Made by a program: the position numbers and the translations under genes
The notes under the pieces: model-generated
Databases searched by the model: none
What the model saw: only the letters and a program-made list of their open reading frames with translations
What the model was told of the DNA's origin: nothing
Shown here: positions 479 to 12,922 of the stretch, in pieces
How the letters are laid out: each line of letters opens with the position of its first letter
How positions within the stretch are numbered: the first letter of the stretch is position 1
From: Chitinophagaceae bacterium
GTDB lineage: Bacteria > Bacteroidota > Bacteroidia > Chitinophagales > Chitinophagaceae
Length of the DNA: 13,556 nt
NCBI GenBank assembly: GCA_947378615.1
Contig: CANCKV010000024.1
Span: 1-13,556 of the forward strand
Reading direction: 5' to 3'

Positions 479-937
479 ATGTTTATAACAAAGAAACTTT
501 CTGAAAGAAAATGTATCGCTTTGATTGCGCATGACCATAAAAAAGTAGATATGGTGGAATGGGCATTACATAATCGTCAAACGTTGTCTAAGCACGAGTT
601 GATGGCTACAGGGACAACAGGTAAATTAGTAGAAGAAGCCTTAGACAGGCCTGTAAAGAAGTTTTTAAGTGGTCCACTTGGAGGTGATCAACAGATAGGA
701 AGCCTCATCGCAACAGGAAATATCGATATTGTTATTTTCTTTTGGGATCCTATGGAAGCACAGCCACATGATACGGACGTAAAAGCATTACTTCGTTTAT
801 GTGCAGTATGGAATATTCCGATGGCTGCGGATAGGTCAACAGCAGATTTCATCATCACTTCACCCTTTATGAACGAAGCTTATGATGCAATTATCCCTGA
901 CTATGATGGCTATCTGAAAAGGGATATTAGCAAATAG
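479..937 (+). CDS. mgsA: Methylglyoxal synthase
   Basis: This cytoplasmic enzyme converts dihydroxyacetone phosphate to methylglyoxal and phosphate, a bypass of lower glycolysis that relieves sugar-phosphate build-up. The 152 residues equal the length of the E. coli enzyme and align with it almost without gaps. Landmarks are IALIAHDH (H18, D19), ATGTTG (43-48, phosphate loop), SGPLGGDQQIG with catalytic base D70 (E. coli D71), FFWDPMEAQPHDTD with H97 and D100 (E. coli H98, D101), VKALLRL, WNIP and the C-terminal IIPDY. All active-site residues are present, so it should be functional. The ATG is preceded by an A-rich tract with no Shine-Dalgarno sequence, which is normal for this phylum. The gene stands alone on the plus strand and converges on the nucleotidyltransferase gene. 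Nothing nearby encodes methylglyoxal detoxification. Confidence 0.97.
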   Translation: MFITKKLSERKCIALIAHDHKKVDMVEWALHNRQTLSKHELMATGTTGKLVEEALDRPVKKFLSGPLGGDQQIGSLIATGNIDIVIFFWDPMEAQPHDTDVKALLRLCAVWNIPMAADRSTADFIITSPFMNEAYDAIIPDYDGYLKRDISK

Positions 938-1013: not shown

Positions 1014-1748
1014 CTATCTAAACATCATTTCTGCCTTTAAAATACTTTCAGGCTTTCCTACATCTAATAATAGACTTGTAGAATGGTCGAAGCATTCGAT
1101 AATATTCTGACCGCAAAGACTCATATAGACATCTATTAAGGAAAACTTTCCCCGTTGTTCTATTTTATTAAAAATAGCGGAGTTGATAACATGAATACCA
1201 CTAAAAGCCATTTGATGTAATGAAAGTTTTTCATCAGTGGAATAGTTAATTACAGGTCCTTTTTCTTCACCCGTCGTTACATTTCTCCATCCTGACAAAT
1301 GATTTCTGTTATCAAAAAGAAGGTATCTGCTGCTATTTCTTTCTGTTACTGCAAGAGTGGCAATAGGATTATTTAATCTATGTTGCATTATCATTTTATG
1401 AAGGGGCATATCAGTTAGCATATCGACATTCATAACCACGAAGTCTTCTTCATTTTCAAAATACCAGCTTGCCTTCAGCAATCCCCCACCTGTTTCCAAT
1501 ACAGCGTCTGTTTCATCAGAGATACTGATATTACTTCCCCATCCTTTATTTGATTCGATGGCATCAATTATTTGTGCTGCAAAATGATGCACATTTACCA
1601 ATACTTCTCTTATACCTTGTGTTTGTAGGAATTCTACATTTCTTTGTAGTAAACTTTTTCCATTTACAGGTGCCAATGCTTTTGGATGTTCCAATGTAAA
1701 AGGTTGAAGCCTTGTTCCTAATCCTGCTGCCAATAATAATGCTTTCAA
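1014..1748 (-). CDS. MurU-like sugar-1-phosphate nucleotidyltransferase
   Basis: A 244-residue nucleotidyltransferase of the NDP-sugar pyrophosphorylase superfamily, which couples a sugar 1-phosphate to an NTP. The signature loop is at residues 4-14 (LLLAAGLGTRL), with the PKALAPVNGK lysine motif at 22-31, LETGGGL at 84-90 (typical of MurU-type enzymes), the metal-binding NVD with D109, and a closing LLLDVGKPES with D229. The length fits MurU (MurNAc-1-phosphate uridylyltransferase) and is too short for enzymes carrying a C-terminal left-handed beta helix. It follows the kinase-RapZ fusion by 107 bp in the same direction, repeating the kinase/uridylyltransferase logic of AmgK-MurU peptidoglycan recycling. 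Other hexose or heptose 1-phosphates remain possible substrates. The start must be TTG at 1746-1748: an in-frame TAA lies 15 nt upstream with no ATG between, and the family begins exactly at MKALLLAAG. An AAGAAG lies just upstream. Confidence 0.88.
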   Translation of the reverse strand: MKALLLAAGLGTRLQPFTLEHPKALAPVNGKSLLQRNVEFLQTQGIREVLVNVHHFAAQIIDAIESNKGWGSNISISDETDAVLETGGGLLKASWYFENEEDFVVMNVDMLTDMPLHKMIMQHRLNNPIATLAVTERNSSRYLLFDNRNHLSGWRNVTTGEEKGPVINYSTDEKLSLHQMAFSGIHVINSAIFNKIEQRGKFSLIDVYMSLCGQNIIECFDHSTSLLLDVGKPESILKAEMMFR

Positions 1749-1855
1749 GTACTTCTTATTTGATTATAAAATGACCTATTATTTACTATTCCATTACTTA
1801 TAAAGCTAAAAAACAAACGTATAGCTTAATACTTACAACTTAAAACCTATTACTT

Positions 1856-3307
1856 TTACTTTACCCACTTATCCCTATTCGTATGCGACAATTCAACCTT
1901 AACCTTATACTTTTCTTGAAGGTGCTTCGCCGTTTGTTCAGCAGCAAATACACTACGATGTTGCCCCCCCGTACATCCAAAATTGACAGAAAGATGTTCA
2001 AATCCTCTCTCCAAATAATTTTCAACTGATATGTCAATTACTTCCCAAACACTATTTAGAAACGAACCCATTTTAGTCCGTTCCTTCAAAAAGTCTTGAA
2101 CAGGCTTATCCAAGCCACTTAGCTTTTTATAATCATCAAACCTTCCAGGATTTAATATTCCCCGCATGTCAAATACATATCCTCCTCCCGATTCATTGTT
2201 GCATTCAGGTATACCATTGCGATAACTAAAGCTGTTGATGACAACCACAAGAGGCGTATGTTCATCTGCTTGCTGTACTGAGAATCTATCAATAATTTCT
2301 TGACTTGAAACCTTTAATAGCAACTCGTGAAAAACGGGCAGGGAAAGACCAATTGTTTTGTTTGCCACAAAGAATTGTATGTTTTTCAATGCTAATGGAA
2401 TACTAGAAACAAAATGTGATTTTCTTTCGAATAATCCCCTAAATCCATACGCACCAAGTACTTGAAGTAATCTAATTAATACATAACCATTGTAATGATG
2501 GATAAAAGCTGTTTTGTCGATTGGTTTGCCGAGGATTTTCTCTACTTCAATGATATAAAATGCCAAAAGACTGTTCTTCCATTCTTCACTCAAATTCGCC
2601 TTTGCTTGCCATAGAAGACTAGCCACATCATATTGCAATGCCCCTTTCATGCCTCCTTGAAAATCAATAAAAGCAACTTCATCCTCTCTGACCAATATAT
2701 TACGACTTTGAAAATCCCTGAACATAAAATACTGATGTTCAGTTTCCGCAAGAAATGTACTCAATGTTTCCATTTCCTCTTGCAGTATTATTTTGTTGTA
2801 AGGGATGGAAAGGGTGTCAAGAAAATAATATTTAAAATAGAGAAGGTCATTTAATATGGCTTGTTTACCAAAAGACTTTGCCGCAAAGCATTTGTTGTAA
2901 TCTAAATCCTTATCTCCTTCAATTTGAATGCGTGCCAATTGAGAAAGACTCTTTTGATAGAGTGAAAATACTTTTTCATCCTTACCAAACTGTTCTATTT
3001 TGTCCAATAAATTCTCTTTACCCATGTCTTCCTGTATGTAAATAGTCTGTTCATTATTCACATAAAGAACATTTGGCACGGGTATTCCTTTAGATTTAAA
3101 ATGTTTCGAGAAATAAAAGAAGGTTTCATTCTCTTTTATATGGGTGTTATAGGCAGCAATAAAAGAAGATATTTCTGTGATAATCCTAAAATAAACCCTA
3201 TCACTACCGCTCTGTGGCAGCATCTCTAGATTAGTAATTAGTTCTTTATTATTTGCGACGAATAAGCATTTTATCTCGTTTGTAATCTGTTCTAAACTTA
3301 AATTCAT
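1856..3307 (-). CDS. AmgK-like sugar kinase fused to a RapZ C-terminal domain
   Basis: A 483-residue two-domain protein. Residues ~1-335 are an APH/choline-kinase-like small-molecule kinase: the catalytic loop is FRDFQSRN (D198, N203) and the metal motif IDFQGGMKGALQYDVASLL has D215. These match AmgK-type anomeric amino-sugar kinases (RDxHxxN, then DFQD...YDLVSLL) better than antibiotic kinases. Residues ~352-483 match the C-terminal domain of RapZ: INSFSYRNGIP, VFDMRGILNP (378-387), GLDKPVQDFL (398-407), NFGCTGGQHRSV (442-453) and a closing SHTNRDK. In E. coli this half of RapZ binds GlcN6P and the sRNAs GlmY/GlmZ; the P-loop half of RapZ is absent here. The MurU-like gene follows directly. 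The inferred role is phosphorylation of MurNAc, GlcNAc or a related sugar, possibly adjusted by GlcN6P. The ATG at 3305-3307 is clear. Aminoglycoside resistance is unlikely. Confidence 0.9.
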   Translation of the reverse strand: MNLSLEQITNEIKCLFVANNKELITNLEMLPQSGSDRVYFRIITEISSFIAAYNTHIKENETFFYFSKHFKSKGIPVPNVLYVNNEQTIYIQEDMGKENLLDKIEQFGKDEKVFSLYQKSLSQLARIQIEGDKDLDYNKCFAAKSFGKQAILNDLLYFKYYFLDTLSIPYNKIILQEEMETLSTFLAETEHQYFMFRDFQSRNILVREDEVAFIDFQGGMKGALQYDVASLLWQAKANLSEEWKNSLLAFYIIEVEKILGKPIDKTAFIHHYNGYVLIRLLQVLGAYGFRGLFERKSHFVSSIPLALKNIQFFVANKTIGLSLPVFHELLLKVSSQEIIDRFSVQQADEHTPLVVVINSFSYRNGIPECNNESGGGYVFDMRGILNPGRFDDYKKLSGLDKPVQDFLKERTKMGSFLNSVWEVIDISVENYLERGFEHLSVNFGCTGGQHRSVFAAEQTAKHLQEKYKVKVELSHTNRDKWVK

Positions 3308-3559: not shown

Positions 3560-4150
3560 TTAGTATGCTTTCAAATTGTCCGCCTCTATTTCTACTATAT
3601 CACCCTTTTGCCTTAGAATAGCAACTCCATTTTCTTTTGCATATTTTCAGCCCTTTTATCAAAAGAAAAACTTGCAATACCCAAATAATAACTGTGGGTT
3701 GCATAAAAAGGAAAAAGATGTCTGAAGTTGCTTACTTTTTTTTTCAATTAATTTGACCACATCCTCTTCCTTTGCATTGTATTTACACTCTATGATTGCC
3801 ACATTTTTTCCATTAAACATTGTAATGTCAAATTCATCTTCAAGATTAGGTATTTTGTAGTGGAGGTTTCTACTAATTTCATCAAATTTCAAGTTACCTA
3901 GTCTTTTATCCTCTTCTAATGAGTTAAAAAAGTATTCTTCTGTACCATATCCATGACTATTTGCCATTCCACCAACATGGATGCCCATACTTTTCAATTT
4001 CTCATCAGTTTTTCGCATTTGCGCTTCTATTCTTTCAAACTGTGCTTCTGTTTTTTCAAACTGTGCTTCTGTTTTTTCAAACTGTAATTCTGTTCTTGCT
4101 TGTGCAACCGCTAATTCTGCAAATATTTCCTTCAATTTGTTATCTGTCAT
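3560..4150 (-). pseudogene. Coiled-coil plus PD-(D/E)XK nuclease-like protein, broken by two frameshifts
   Basis: The open part (4150 down to 3659) encodes 163 residues. Residues ~18-55 are a heptad coiled coil built from FEKTEAQ repeats. A nuclease-like core follows, with EFDIT (D108) and VAIIECKYN (E121, K123), matching the D...ExK pattern of PD-(D/E)XK folds in small Bacteroidota and cyanobacterial proteins of unknown role. After residue ~138 the frame turns to nonsense (LCNPQLLFGYCKFFF, then stop). In a second frame the expected family ending appears: FRHLFPFYATHSYYLGIASF. A further shift gives GVAILRQKGDIVEIEADN and a stop at 3560-3562. The first shift lies in the T9 run at 3736-3744 (one base too many) and the second in the T-runs at 3630-3638 (one base too few). 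They cancel: 591 nt equals 197 codons. The gene is either a recent pseudogene or carries homopolymer sequencing errors. The substrate is unknown. Confidence 0.75.
4036..4098. repeat. In-gene 21-bp tandem repeat encoding heptads
   Basis: Two perfect 21-bp copies (4036-4056 and 4057-4077, beginning CAAACTGTGCTTCTG) are followed by a diverged copy (4078-4098) and preceded by another diverged one. On the minus strand each unit encodes the heptad FEKTEAQ. Copy number could vary by slippage and would change coiled-coil length without breaking the frame. Confidence 0.85.
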
Positions 4151-8367: not shown

Positions 8368-9855
8368 TTAAAACTGCAAATAAACAGGCTTAATCACATC
8401 CGCTTGTTTACATTGAATAGCGATGTAGATGAATACAATAAAATAAAGAATCTTCAAAGGCAATGGAATCTTTACCAATATGTGCTTGAACTTATTTTCG
8501 AAATTCAATGAGATGCCATGAAGTAGGAATGCAGCTGCTATCATCCAAATTACGGGCGAATAGCTCGTGTAGAGTGCTTTTAATAAATTGATATTGAAGT
8601 TAGTTCCAATTTGTCGGAGCATTATCCAACTATCATTGAAGGTATCACAACGAAAGAATATCCATCCCAAACAAATAAAATGAAATGTAATAATCGTAGC
8701 TAAAATATTCGTTGCCTTTTTCGAATAAGGTAATACAATCAGGTGTTTCCTTCCTAGTTTATAACGTAGTTTATCCACCGCAAGGGCAATACCATGTAAG
8801 GCTCCCCAAAAGATAAAGTTCCAACTTGCCCCGTGCCAAAAACCACCAATCAGCATTGTGATAATTAAATTCTTGTAGGTAGCAAACTTTCCTTTTCTAT
8901 TGCCTCCTAGAGGGATATAAACATAATCTTTCAGCCAACTCGATAAGGAGATATGCCAACGCCGCCAAAATTCAGTGACTGTAGCCGACTGATACGGTGA
9001 AAGAAAATTGATATTTATCTCGAAACCCATCCATTTTCCCATACCGATTGCCATATCGGAATAACCCGAGAAATCGCAATAAATTACCATTGCATACCCA
9101 TAAATCGCCAATAAGCATTCTATACCTGTATGAACGGAAGGATTTTCGAAGACATGAATGACGTAATTCGCATTGATGAAATCACTGATAATGACCTTCT
9201 TTATGATGCCGGCAGTAATGAGGTATAGACCCTCGCCCACCTGCTTGTTAGTTACAAATGGTTCCTTATTTATTTGTGGAATAAAATCAGCCGCCCTAAC
9301 AATTGGCCCCATCATCAACTTTGGAAAGAAGGATAGGAAAAACAAATAATCAATGAACCGAGTAACAGGTTTAAACTCTCCATTGTAAACATCTACCGTA
9401 TAGCTCAAATTTTCGAAGGTATAAAAGGAGATGCCTATCGGTAGGATGAGTTTGAGTGGATTTAATTGCTGATGTGCAATATCATTCAATATGCCAATAA
9501 AAAAGTTGGTGTATTTGAAATAAATCAATAACCCAAGATTGACAATGACGCTCAATACCAACCAAAACTTTTTCAATGGTTTCTTTTTACATCGATAGAT
9601 AGTATGCCCAATATGATAGTCGAATACTGCCGTTACAAGTATGAAACCCACATACCAACCACAGGTTTTATAGAAAAAATAGAGAGAGAAAAGGGTGAGT
9701 AGATAAACCCTCAGTGTATTGAAACGATAGGTGATTGTGTAAACCAATAGGAACACACCAAAAAAGAATAGAAAGAAGGCACTGTTGAACAGCAGTGGGT
9801 CTTTTTCGTGAAACAGAAGAACGTCCAATAATTTATTTAAGTCTATTCCCTCCAA
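8368..9855 (-). CDS. MBOAT-family membrane O-acetyltransferase (AlgI/PatA-like)
   Basis: A 495-residue polytopic membrane protein of the MBOAT family, which moves acetyl groups from a cytoplasmic donor across the membrane for O-acetylation of a surface glycan. Hydrophobic segments occur throughout. Family landmarks are LPIGISFYTFENLSY (138-152), FFPKLMMGPIVR (176-187), YCDFSGYSDMAIG (259-271), the EFWRRWHISLSSWLKDY block (H301) and GGFWHGASWNFIFWG with the catalytic-type H341. The length fits AlgI, PatA and DltB relatives, and the C-terminal VYLQF matches many Bacteroidota members. It lies 8 bp after the SGNH gene, giving the membrane/extracytoplasmic pair seen in alginate and peptidoglycan O-acetylation. 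The start is TTG at 9853-9855: no ATG exists between the upstream in-frame stop and this codon, and TAAAGGA lies 5 nt before it, overlapping the stop of the SGNH gene, which suggests translational coupling. The acceptor glycan is unknown. Confidence 0.93.
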   Translation of the reverse strand: MEGIDLNKLLDVLLFHEKDPLLFNSAFFLFFFGVFLLVYTITYRFNTLRVYLLTLFSLYFFYKTCGWYVGFILVTAVFDYHIGHTIYRCKKKPLKKFWLVLSVIVNLGLLIYFKYTNFFIGILNDIAHQQLNPLKLILPIGISFYTFENLSYTVDVYNGEFKPVTRFIDYLFFLSFFPKLMMGPIVRAADFIPQINKEPFVTNKQVGEGLYLITAGIIKKVIISDFINANYVIHVFENPSVHTGIECLLAIYGYAMVIYCDFSGYSDMAIGMGKWMGFEININFLSPYQSATVTEFWRRWHISLSSWLKDYVYIPLGGNRKGKFATYKNLIITMLIGGFWHGASWNFIFWGALHGIALAVDKLRYKLGRKHLIVLPYSKKATNILATIITFHFICLGWIFFRCDTFNDSWIMLRQIGTNFNINLLKALYTSYSPVIWMIAAAFLLHGISLNFENKFKHILVKIPLPLKILYFIVFIYIAIQCKQADVIKPVYLQF

Positions 9856-9863
9856 AGAGTCCT

Positions 9864-11231
9864 TTACTTTTTGGTCAATTTAGTACGTTGATAATATTCT
9901 TTAGACTGCATTAGTTTATTGAAAAACAAATCACCAATCCGTTTTGCTCCTCGTGAGTTGACATGTGTATAATCCTTATTTGCTAATACAGTATCCCCTT
10001 CCACCCAATTTGTAATGGTATTTTCACCACCCATCGACTGATAAAGATTCCAAAAGGCCACTTTGTGTCTCTTTGCAATAGCTCTTTGCGTTGCAACCAT
10101 AAATGGAACGCCATGTTCTGTGCTATATTTTCCATCATATTTATAGCCAATATCACTCGTACTCACAATCAATATCGGCACATTACCAAACCCCTTCTTC
10201 ATATTCTGAATTACTTTATGCATGCTACTTTCAAACCAATCAAATTCCTGTTTCTCATGTTCTACAGCATTGATGCCATAATGAACAATTATAAGGTCGT
10301 AATGCAAATAACCATTCAATTGTTGCATCACTTCTTGAGTAATCTGTTGTGTTAGAACACTCGTATTACCTCTAAAGGAATAATTATCGAGATACACGCC
10401 TTGCTTGTCTTCGAAACTGACCCCATAAATAGGCATATTTGTTTGCGAAGCAGCCAATGATATAGAATTTATAGATGTAGAATTACTGATAACAGTTTCA
10501 TTTATTAATTCGTTTCCAATTGTATTGAATACGTCAGCCTTTCCATTTTTAACTACCGTCAATGCTGCATTTGCAGGCATCTTTCCATAGTACAATTTCA
10601 CATCTGTTGTAGGAGATTTATATTTTGGAACGAAATCTACCGCTGAATTATTTGTTGAAAAAAACAAATGTCCCGACAAACCAAGTGGATATTTATTAGG
10701 ATTGTCCCTGAAATTATAATCTGTCCACCCATTTCCATTCAATCTTATTTGGGTATATAAACTTGATACAGCAGATTGTACAGGAACGAAGCCTATACCT
10801 GTACCTCCAAAATTCGATTGAAGCCGAAGTCTTATTTCATCAGTAATATCATCCCCTTCTATGAAAGAATCTCCAAAATAGGCAATCCTTATTTTAGCAT
10901 GGTTTTGTTTTATGCTATCTAGCTTTCGATATAAATTATTAAGTGAATAAGTCGAATCTGTGCCATAATCTGTAATCAAGGTTTCATCTTCAGGCGGGGG
11001 TGTATTTTTGAAGATGACAGGAGGGTCTTTTTTTGCAATAATTATTGGAGTGAATTTTGGTTTAGGTTTATCCATTCTTAATTCGGATAATAAATCCACC
11101 TGTTTTTGAGAAAACCACTTGGAATCGGTTATGGTTTTAGGAAGTTTAACAAAGGTCAATACAAAAAGAATGGCAATAGTAAAAGTTACTAATACAAGAG
11201 GTTGCCAAATTTTGTTATTCCTTTTTTCCAT
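9864..11231 (-). CDS. Membrane-anchored SGNH/GDSL hydrolase, likely acetyltransferase partner
   Basis: A 455-residue protein from the ATG at 11229-11231; a TTG two codons upstream is a possible alternative. An N-terminal membrane segment (residues ~9-28) anchors it, followed by a Pro/Lys-rich stalk to ~85. All SGNH blocks are visible: IAYFGDSFIEGD with nucleophile S122, the SFRGN oxyanion glycine (G288), VHYGIN with N321, and KDYTHVNSRG with D420 and H423. The region between blocks I and II (~150-285) is long and beta-rich, as in accessory-domain SGNH proteins, and may bind glycan. Paired with the downstream MBOAT it probably accepts the acetyl group outside the membrane and passes it to glycan, like PatB or AlgJ/AlgX; de-O-acetylation is the main alternative. 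It overlaps the 3' end of the glucosaminidase gene by 17 bp. The catalytic set is complete. Confidence 0.9.
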   Translation of the reverse strand: MEKRNNKIWQPLVLVTFTIAILFVLTFVKLPKTITDSKWFSQKQVDLLSELRMDKPKPKFTPIIIAKKDPPVIFKNTPPPEDETLITDYGTDSTYSLNNLYRKLDSIKQNHAKIRIAYFGDSFIEGDDITDEIRLRLQSNFGGTGIGFVPVQSAVSSLYTQIRLNGNGWTDYNFRDNPNKYPLGLSGHLFFSTNNSAVDFVPKYKSPTTDVKLYYGKMPANAALTVVKNGKADVFNTIGNELINETVISNSTSINSISLAASQTNMPIYGVSFEDKQGVYLDNYSFRGNTSVLTQQITQEVMQQLNGYLHYDLIIVHYGINAVEHEKQEFDWFESSMHKVIQNMKKGFGNVPILIVSTSDIGYKYDGKYSTEHGVPFMVATQRAIAKRHKVAFWNLYQSMGGENTITNWVEGDTVLANKDYTHVNSRGAKRIGDLFFNKLMQSKEYYQRTKLTKK

Positions 11232-11628
11232 CCACAATGCAGTTGAGAGTCGCCCTTATACGGGTTCTTTTTAATTGTATATCATAACGGAATTTCTTTT
11301 TTCCGCTGAAATTTTTCTTTTGTAAAAAATCATAATAATCTGTTTCATTATGTGTATAATTCTTGTCTTGCCATACTTTATAATAATCGACACATGCTTT
11401 CCAATCGTCGAATGCCATATATCTTTTGCGTCTGAAACCAAATAGGTTATTTTTCTTTTGATAAATATTCGACCGAAAGTGCCCTGTTTCATATATCGCC
11501 TGACGTAATACTACTTCGGGATATTTAATCTCCTTTTGTTTGATATAGCAATAAATATCATTTTCCGATTGAGCAGATAAATGTGTATTTATTACAAAAC
11601 AAAAAAGTATAATAATGGCAAATCGCAT
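11215..11628 (-). CDS. Secreted glucosaminidase-like protein (GH73-type fold)
   Basis: With the ATG at 11626-11628 the protein has 137 residues and a textbook signal peptide (MRFAIIILFCFVINTHLSAQ). The frame stays open to a TTG at 11674-11676, but that start would bury the signal peptide. The mature part resembles the mannosyl-glycoprotein endo-beta-N-acetylglucosaminidase domain: VVLRQAIYETGHFRSNIY with candidate catalytic E47, KKNNLFGFR (58-66), then a YMAFDDWKACVDYYKVWQ segment that normally packs the substrate groove. It is shorter than most full GH73 enzymes, and the second acid is not obvious, so activity is uncertain. The likely substrate is the GlcNAc-MurNAc backbone in the periplasm. 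The gene ends inside the start of the SGNH gene and heads the SGNH-MBOAT set, suggesting that this system acts on peptidoglycan or another GlcNAc-containing glycan. Confidence 0.8.
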   Translation of the reverse strand: MRFAIIILFCFVINTHLSAQSENDIYCYIKQKEIKYPEVVLRQAIYETGHFRSNIYQKKNNLFGFRRKRYMAFDDWKACVDYYKVWQDKNYTHNETDYYDFLQKKNFSGKKKFRYDIQLKRTRIRATLNCIVDGKKE

Positions 11629-11740
11629 AGCAAGCAGAGCATTAAATCGAAATAAATATACTGACAATAAATTCAAAAAACCATAATTTTTAACAGAAAA
11701 AAAGAAACATTTCTTCCGTGATTAACGCAATGATAAGCAA

Positions 11741-12568
11741 TTATCTATAATTCCCCATCACTTTACAGTCGCAATCGTTTTCTAAAGGTATTTTCATCTT
11801 CTTACAAAATGTTTGATAAAATCCAATTCGCTCATTTCTATTATCACTTACATCCTTTTTAGTTGTGTTGCATTCGAGCCCTCCGTTAATGATATTTATC
11901 GTCATTCCAAAGCCAGGAACACGGTTCAAATCCTTATCTTCTTTCGTCGGAATCCATTTCCCACACATCACTTCATGACAACTTGGCTTAGGCTTTTGAT
12001 GTTTCATCCAAAACCAAAGGGCACATTCAAAAGCAATCGAACCATTACTACTCACTAAATCTGGATTTTGAAGAAGGGGAAGGTTTAAATCATCTCCTGC
12101 CAATCCATAATTGTAGGCATAAGAAAGTTGTAGAGGACCACGACCATAATAATTTTTTCCAGGTACAGGTGCATAGGCACTCGTTCCTGCAGAGTTATAG
12201 ATAGGACAAGGTTTTTTGAGGCAGTCCTGTTCTTCTTTATAGACTAATCCCCACACATAAGCGCCTCCTTCTGCCTCAGGCCAGCCGTCTGTAGTTTCAT
12301 GTGCAATATTGGCAAAAAAGGCCATTAATTCACGTTTATTTTGTAATTCTGTTCCTTCAGTGGCAAACAATGGAAACTTCTCTGTCGCAGCTATAAATGA
12401 CTCATATTTATAAAGGGTATCCCTATGTGGGAATAAGGCCTCAAATTGTTTTTTAGAAATAAGCTTTGCCACTCGTTTCTCGTTCTTAATTATGACAGGT
12501 GTTTGTGCTATGGTAGCAAGGAAACAAAAAGTAAGAAAAACTATTAAAAAGTATTTAAAGTATTGCAT
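11741..12568 (-). CDS. Secreted GH19-family chitinase
   Basis: With the ATG at 12566-12568 the 275-residue protein has a signal peptide (residues 1-22, FLTFCFLATIAQ) and a nearly complete GH19 catalytic domain very close to plant class I/II chitinases. Motifs are FFANIAHETTDGW with catalytic acid E91, AYVWGLVYKEE with E113 (the second acid), KNYYGRGPLQLSYAYNYG (138-155), LLQNPDLV, ALWFWMKHQKPKPSCHEV, VPGFGMTINIINGGLECN (217-234) and NERIGFYQ. No chitin-binding domain is present. It should hydrolyse beta-1,4-GlcNAc polymers by inversion; some relatives act on peptidoglycan. Upstream codons run to a TTG at 12649, but a -7-like TACTTTCG at 12588-12595 supports the ATG. Several cysteines (C116, C121, C198, C202, C233, C266, C268) suggest disulfides in an exported protein. 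The glucosaminidase gene follows after 112 bp. Confidence 0.94.
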   Translation of the reverse strand: MQYFKYFLIVFLTFCFLATIAQTPVIIKNEKRVAKLISKKQFEALFPHRDTLYKYESFIAATEKFPLFATEGTELQNKRELMAFFANIAHETTDGWPEAEGGAYVWGLVYKEEQDCLKKPCPIYNSAGTSAYAPVPGKNYYGRGPLQLSYAYNYGLAGDDLNLPLLQNPDLVSSNGSIAFECALWFWMKHQKPKPSCHEVMCGKWIPTKEDKDLNRVPGFGMTINIINGGLECNTTKKDVSDNRNERIGFYQTFCKKMKIPLENDCDCKVMGNYR

Positions 12569-12587
12569 ATTATGCGATTGTATGTTG

Positions 12588-12595
12588 CGAAAGTA
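12588..12595 (-). promoter_or_regulatory. Candidate -7 element of the chitinase gene
   Basis: The minus strand reads TACTTTCG within GTACTTTCGC, identical to the 10-mer upstream of the nuclease-like gene (4165-4174). It lies 20 bp before the ATG at 12568 and downstream of the alternative TTG at 12649, so transcripts from it could only use the ATG. No clear -33 element is seen. Confidence 0.45.
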
Positions 12596-12922
12596 CACAT
12601 TCGCAATAATTAAGCCGCCGATAAGTAAATTCAAAACCTTTTTGCACAATTAAGTTATAAAGTCAGTTTTTTACAAATCTTTGTGACCAATATTTATCGT
12701 TGAATTGAGAAGATATTACCACAAAGTATGAAATGAAGAGGGGGCATGTTACTTATTTATATAACTTTTTAGAAAAGAGAAAAAGCTAAACATATAGTGA
12801 CATAGCCACATAGAAAGGATATAGATTTATCTATTTTTTATTAAAATGAAGGGCAAATAGGAATACTACTCCGTAGCATTAGGAACGCCTTTTTGAAAAG
12901 AAGTTATTTAGTCGTAAACAAG

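Follow-up and report, generated by a model that had tools for sequence, protein, structure and literature searches.

The window, a stretch of 13,556 nucleotides from a Chitinophagaceae bacterium, carries on its minus strand a gene (1856..3307) encoding a 483-residue protein in which an AmgK-like kinase is joined to the C-terminal domain of RapZ (RapZ-C). The kinase domain occupies residues 35–252 (2552..3205, minus strand); it is identified by Pfam APH, by alignment A1 and by the first Foldseek match, 3csv, and its motifs RDFQSRN (197–203) and IDFQ (214–217) contain residues invariant across the 16 kinases of that alignment. RapZ-C follows at residues 354–475 (1883..2248, minus strand). It holds a phosphate loop, GCTGGQHRS (residues 444–452; 1952..1978, minus strand), whose residues are identical across 53 sequences save for Q449, which is Gln in 52, and which includes a CX5RS signature that runs from C445 to S452. 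In the predicted model the loop is flanked by a strand (438–445) and a helix (451–466).

A first-pass annotation of this DNA had described an AmgK-like kinase joined to a complete RapZ-C, with the P-loop half of RapZ missing and a MurU-type enzyme as partner, and the follow-up bears this description out. The domain search recovered APH and a complete RapZ-C (PapZ_C, PF22740, E 1.2e-30, above the cut-off), and a structure search with the model (mean pLDDT 90.1) matched the RapZ-C fold. The P-loop half, PF03668, is absent from the protein and unmatched in the window’s own genome; the equivalog model for full-length RapZ, NF003828, scores the fusion at 97.1 bits, below its cut-off of 244.

The partner lies 107 bases downstream of the fusion gene (1014..1748, minus strand) and encodes a MurU-like nucleotidyltransferase of 244 residues (NTP_transferase, 6.3e-19). 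It matches the MurU model NF045761 at E 2.4e-34, below that model’s cut-off; the two NCBIfam MurU equivalogs score it at 119.2 of 250 and 88 of 370 bits, and the two AmgK equivalogs score the kinase at 50.8 of 550 and 39.6 of 500 bits, all below cut-off. AmgK and MurU are nevertheless the best sugar-specific NCBIfam models for the gene pair. As is characteristic of AmgK, an APH-type kinase adjoins MurU here; phosphorylation of MurNAc and GlcNAc at the anomeric carbon remains predicted.

Elsewhere in the window, a methylglyoxal synthase gene (479–937, plus strand) exceeds its NCBIfam cut-off, and an open reading frame of 163 residues (3659–4150) contains repeated EKTEAQFE units and has no Pfam match. 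Genes for a DltB-like MBOAT acyltransferase, a GDSL-type protein, a glucosaminidase-domain protein and a GH19 chitinase-like protein stand in a row on the minus strand (8368–12649), perhaps forming an envelope-glycan set.

Distribution and gene arrangement

PF22740 was found in 24 of 198 Bacteroidota genomes, each match lying above the cut-off, and in 92 of 98 genomes of the window’s own family. The N-terminal domain of RapZ reached its cut-off in none of the 198, which gave a single weak match. The kinase and RapZ-C are fused in 20 of the 24 genomes, the window included (the neighbourhoods of the other 23 were inspected), and three more encode them as separate adjoining genes in the order kinase, RapZ-C, MurU (L033, L046 and L047). 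In the remaining genome (G180) RapZ-C stands alone, with the kinase, RapZ-C and MurU on three different contigs; the lone RapZ-C gene overlaps a gene for a predicted secreted endonuclease I (L043:5801-7836). MurU adjoins the fusion or the split pair in 18 of the 24 (with a small open reading frame intervening in L045), and a MurU relative is encoded elsewhere in the other six at E 6.1e-34 or better. Kinase model A1, itself built from sequences of 16 of these genomes, matches in all 24. The remaining neighbours of the RapZ-C loci are mostly variable. In two genomes of the window’s family (G226 and G279) the kinase and RapZ-C share a frame, yet RapZ-C has a short open reading frame of its own, so that the fusion there is split or broken.

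A protein search scored at least 8000 candidates, all of them matches, and GCTGGQHRS is present in all 120 among the matches listed. A scan of GTDB representatives confirmed at least 588 stretches, the best 80 of which were used; its motifs included the loop, and the scan was therefore left out of the conservation counts. These best 80 include Chitinophagaceae and Bacteroidales (Phocaeicola plebeius, P. coprophilus, Bacteroides timonensis, Parabacteroides chinchillae and Alloprevotella rava) as well as metagenome-assembled genomes (MAGs) labelled Ignavibacteria, Calditrichia, Delongbacteria, Elusimicrobia and Acidobacteriaceae. By counts that are approximate owing to an ORF filter, 47 of the best 80 have the fusion with an adjoining MurU, four have MurU nearby (a triple fusion being counted here), 25 have the fusion with no MurU in the stretch (three of these had fewer than 600 bases left), and four show no single fusion frame (L148, L152, L153 and L171). 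Of the last group, L148 is split, and L153, from a Tannerella sp. MAG, carries an open fusion frame overlooked by the filter. The kinase–RapZ-C fusion is thus recurrent across many bacteria. In databases these proteins appear as ‘RapZ C-terminal domain-containing protein’, ‘phosphotransferase’ or ‘RNase adapter RapZ’, and no paper on the fusion was found in the open-access literature, a scope outside which most subscription papers fall.

The linkage extends to a triple fusion. In a Bacteroidaceae MAG (L161:5953-8235), APH, RapZ-C and NTP_transferase domains are encoded in a single frame of 760 residues, with RapZ-C between the kinase and the transferase. When residues 330–760 of this protein were used as a query, the three domains occurred together in 117 of 120 among the matches listed, in proteins of 673–812 residues, so that an assembly error in one MAG is excluded; the other three have RapZ-C and the transferase only.

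The phosphate loop and the RNA surface of RapZ-C

The window’s RapZ-C was aligned with those of 52 other PF22740 loci, and the 53 sequences were compared with E. coli RapZ; the alignment takes in all 24 loci of the phylum sample and, from the family sample, loci from the 30 best-scoring of 93 matches. The equivalents of C247, T248, G249, G250, H252, R253 and S254 are identical in all 53, so that the CX5RS loop, which answers to the C-x5-R-S/T pattern of phosphatases, is invariant. Four members of the ligand-pocket set (H190, T248, G249, H252 and R253) are likewise kept throughout. The fifth, H190, which is required in E. coli RapZ (PMC9841335), is replaced by Gly in 53 of 53, with Arg or Lys as the next residue in 52, suggesting that the ligand may differ from the GlcN6P of E. 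coli RapZ. Overall, RapZ-C is likely to bind an amino-sugar phosphate.

E. coli RapZ has seven basic residues that are said to guide RNA (PMC9841335), and positive charges abound in its tail (PMC7073468). Most of the 53 sequences still have a basic residue at the positions of K170, R184 and R196. At those of K194, R211, R238 and K251 the basic residue is mostly lost, K251 being replaced by Gln in 52 of 53 (Q449 in the window), and the final 15 residues carry a mean net charge of −0.26. As judged from the alignment, the phosphate site is retained, but the RNA surface is in large part not conserved.

The idea of a phosphatase-type loop in RapZ is not new. Khan and Gorke likened the pocket of E. 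coli RapZ to the phosphatase loop of Cys-dependent protein-tyrosine phosphatases; in 2020 they proposed, as a matter under investigation, that RapZ may hydrolyse GlcN6P (PMC7199280). The present analysis adds the connection with AmgK and MurU. According to Islam et al., C247A and C247S of E. coli RapZ are inactive, and the density that these authors describe probably represents a transformed product of GlcN6P; GlmZ did not co-elute with any of the variants that they tested in pull-downs (PMC9841335). The C247 variants are thus also implicated in loss of RNA binding, and the cysteine need not be catalytic. The passages of PMC13232886 that concern GlcN6P, phosphatases or hydrolysis make no mention of hydrolysis by RapZ.

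The fold offers no direct parallel among known phosphatases. None of the 50 structure matches listed has a protein-tyrosine phosphatase fold, a result which excludes nothing, and the nearest non-RapZ fold among them is phosphofructokinase. All 22 RapZ-C domains scanned match PapZ_C alone, and so differ from the HAD-like MupP. No general acid for phosphatase chemistry was found in the comparison of the 53 sequences. The equivalent of E. coli Asp176 was considered and rejected for this role: it is kept in 52 of 53, but is Cys in the window (residue 369; 2219–2221) and in 33 of 110 pattern-matched close relatives, out of 120 listed, suggesting that the Cys is a lineage trait.

Pathway context and the role of RapZ-C

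In Pseudomonas, the MurNAc-6-phosphate produced by AnmK is dephosphorylated by MupP and then converted to UDP-MurNAc by AmgK and MurU (PMC5371407). A phosphatase is wanted between the AnmK and AmgK steps. Among the 198 Bacteroidota genomes, eight have AnmK without MurQ (a best TIGR00274 match weaker than 1e-20), and all eight have RapZ-C; the window’s own genome, one of these, is 68% complete with a partial AnmK match, and the other seven, from five families, are 99–100% complete. RapZ-C is present in nine of the 128 genomes with both AnmK and MurQ, in six of the 50 with neither and in one of the 12 with MurQ only. Against a simple rule, seven of the 24 RapZ-C genomes have no AnmK and ten have MurQ. 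A BadF-type kinase is present in all seven of those without AnmK (E 7.7e-24 or better); it matches below 1e-15 in five of the 17 RapZ-C genomes with AnmK, and strongly in three of the 16 tested among 43 kinase genomes without RapZ-C. The MurK kinase of Tannerella forsythia belongs to the BadF family.

Across the 67 genomes with the kinase, AnmK occurs in 17 of 24 with RapZ-C versus none of 43 without, although the Fisher p of 1e-10 is far too small because 42 of the 43 belong to one family. The kinase of that family is nearer to the AmgK model (110.9 bits), suggesting another lineage and making the AnmK contrast weak. In the ten of its 42 genomes inspected, the kinase and MurU have as neighbours the exo-muramidase NamZ and a sodium symporter (in one, L083, the kinase is not shown by the ORF filter); the family has neither AnmK nor MurQ within the sample, and this gene set could bring in free MurNAc. 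At L081:1603-6210, for example, the kinase, MurU, NamZ and a sodium:solute symporter adjoin by Pfam, with no RapZ-C. NamZ was also considered as a separator of kinase genomes with and without RapZ-C, but is present in 38 of 40 and hence uninformative. Gph-type HAD proteins match in all 36 genomes searched, none above the model cut-off, so that a MupP is possible in any of them.

The module probably serves MurNAc salvage. A more specific reading, that the fusion and its MurU-like neighbour form an anabolic salvage module in which RapZ-C acts as a 6-phosphate phosphatase, is put forward tentatively, at rather less than an even chance. In the proposed order of steps, AnmK or a BadF-type kinase would produce MurNAc-6-phosphate; the CTGGxHRS loop of RapZ-C would hold the 6-phosphate, whose removal would rely on C445 as the nucleophile; the protein’s own AmgK-like kinase would then phosphorylate the anomeric carbon, and MurU would convert the product to UDP-MurNAc. 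With these predicted substrates and this putative phosphatase activity, RapZ-C would fill the role of the HAD phosphatase MupP of Pseudomonas. The range of forms counts in favour: RapZ-C occurs fused, split beside the kinase and MurU, alone and unlinked (G180), and within the triple fusion. The loss of H190, the absence of AnmK in seven of 24 genomes and the presence of MurQ in ten of 24 count against. The broader proposal, held more tentatively still, is that RapZ-C is a Cys-dependent amino-sugar 6-phosphate phosphatase replacing MupP as the MurNAc-6P phosphatase in Bacteroidota and scattered other phyla and welded to the kinase and uridylyltransferase of its route, in the extreme case as a single trifunctional protein, and that the RNA-regulating RapZ of E. 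coli may have been repurposed from this enzyme family.

The first-pass annotation had suggested that the kinase may sense GlcN6P, and it is a serious, if lesser, possibility that RapZ-C is a sensor, which would bind an amino-sugar 6-phosphate (GlcN6P or another) without turning it over and so adjust the fused kinase, and with it salvage, to precursor supply. Isolated E. coli RapZ-C binds GlcN6P (PMC7073468), the pocket loop is conserved, and fusion to the kinase would allow direct coupling. However, H190 is lost in 53 of 53, binding alone needs no invariant cysteine, and a stand-alone, unlinked RapZ-C such as that of G180 is less natural for an allosteric domain. The CX5RS loop, taken together with the pathway, makes catalysis no less probable than GlcN6P sensing. 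Turnover and pure sensing are near even, and we lean towards turnover on account of the cysteine’s invariance, the existence of stand-alone and unlinked genes, and the distribution across genomes.

A route for another sugar, such as GlcNAc, or heptose as in HddA/HddC, with RapZ-C serving that route, is improbable. Scores fall far short of the AmgK and MurU equivalog cut-offs, and a heptose-1-phosphate guanosyltransferase model also matches the transferase, at 67.6 bits versus 119.2 for MurU; set against this are the rank of AmgK and MurU as best sugar-specific models and the presence of RapZ-C in eight of eight genomes with AnmK and without MurQ. A purely structural role for RapZ-C, in dimerising the kinase or docking MurU, is more improbable again: E. 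coli RapZ-C can dimerise (PMC7073468) and the triple fusion places RapZ-C between the other two domains, but full retention of the phosphate loop would be left unexplained. The suggestion that the fusion, like E. coli RapZ, binds RNA has been weakened to the point of being most unlikely, since the shared fold and the three positions that are mostly basic are outweighed by the loss of four of the seven contact bases in most sequences and of H190 in all, a neutral tail and the absence of the RapZ N domain, and comparison with the E. coli RNA contacts gave no support for an RNA regulator.

If RapZ-C is indeed a phosphatase, MurNAc recycling in many Bacteroidota would be explained. The cysteine of E. 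coli RapZ-C is essential for reasons that are unsettled (PMC9841335), a question which the fusion makes testable, and the split genes provide a small natural RapZ-C with no expected RNA role and an obvious candidate substrate. The Pseudomonas MurNAc recycling route bypasses the target of fosfomycin (PMC5371407).

Comparison with known systems

Compared with E. coli RapZ, the window’s RapZ-C has no N-terminal P-loop domain, carries Gly in place of H190, belongs to a set in which four RNA-contact bases are mostly lost, and is fused to a kinase, its relatives being either fused to or beside one. The kinase shares its fold family and its MurU partner with Pseudomonas AmgK, but scores 50.8 bits against a cut-off of 550 and carries RapZ-C. 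Pseudomonas MurU provides the best named model for the transferase (119.2 bits), and its gene likewise adjoins the kinase gene; the window’s enzyme falls under the 250-bit cut-off, and its relatives are sometimes fused to the kinase and RapZ-C.

In Bacteroidota, a route to UDP-MurNAc by AmgK and MurU is likewise described for Tannerella forsythia (PMC7670621), whose two enzymes have been expressed in E. coli for labelling (PMC13041923). With Cys-dependent protein-tyrosine phosphatases, RapZ-C shares a C-x5-R-S loop between a strand and a helix, but their fold is absent among the 50 structure matches listed and no general acid was found in RapZ-C. Pseudomonas MupP would be the counterpart in function, with the same reaction and the same position in the route as those proposed for RapZ-C; MupP is HAD-like (PMC5371407), whereas RapZ-C is not.
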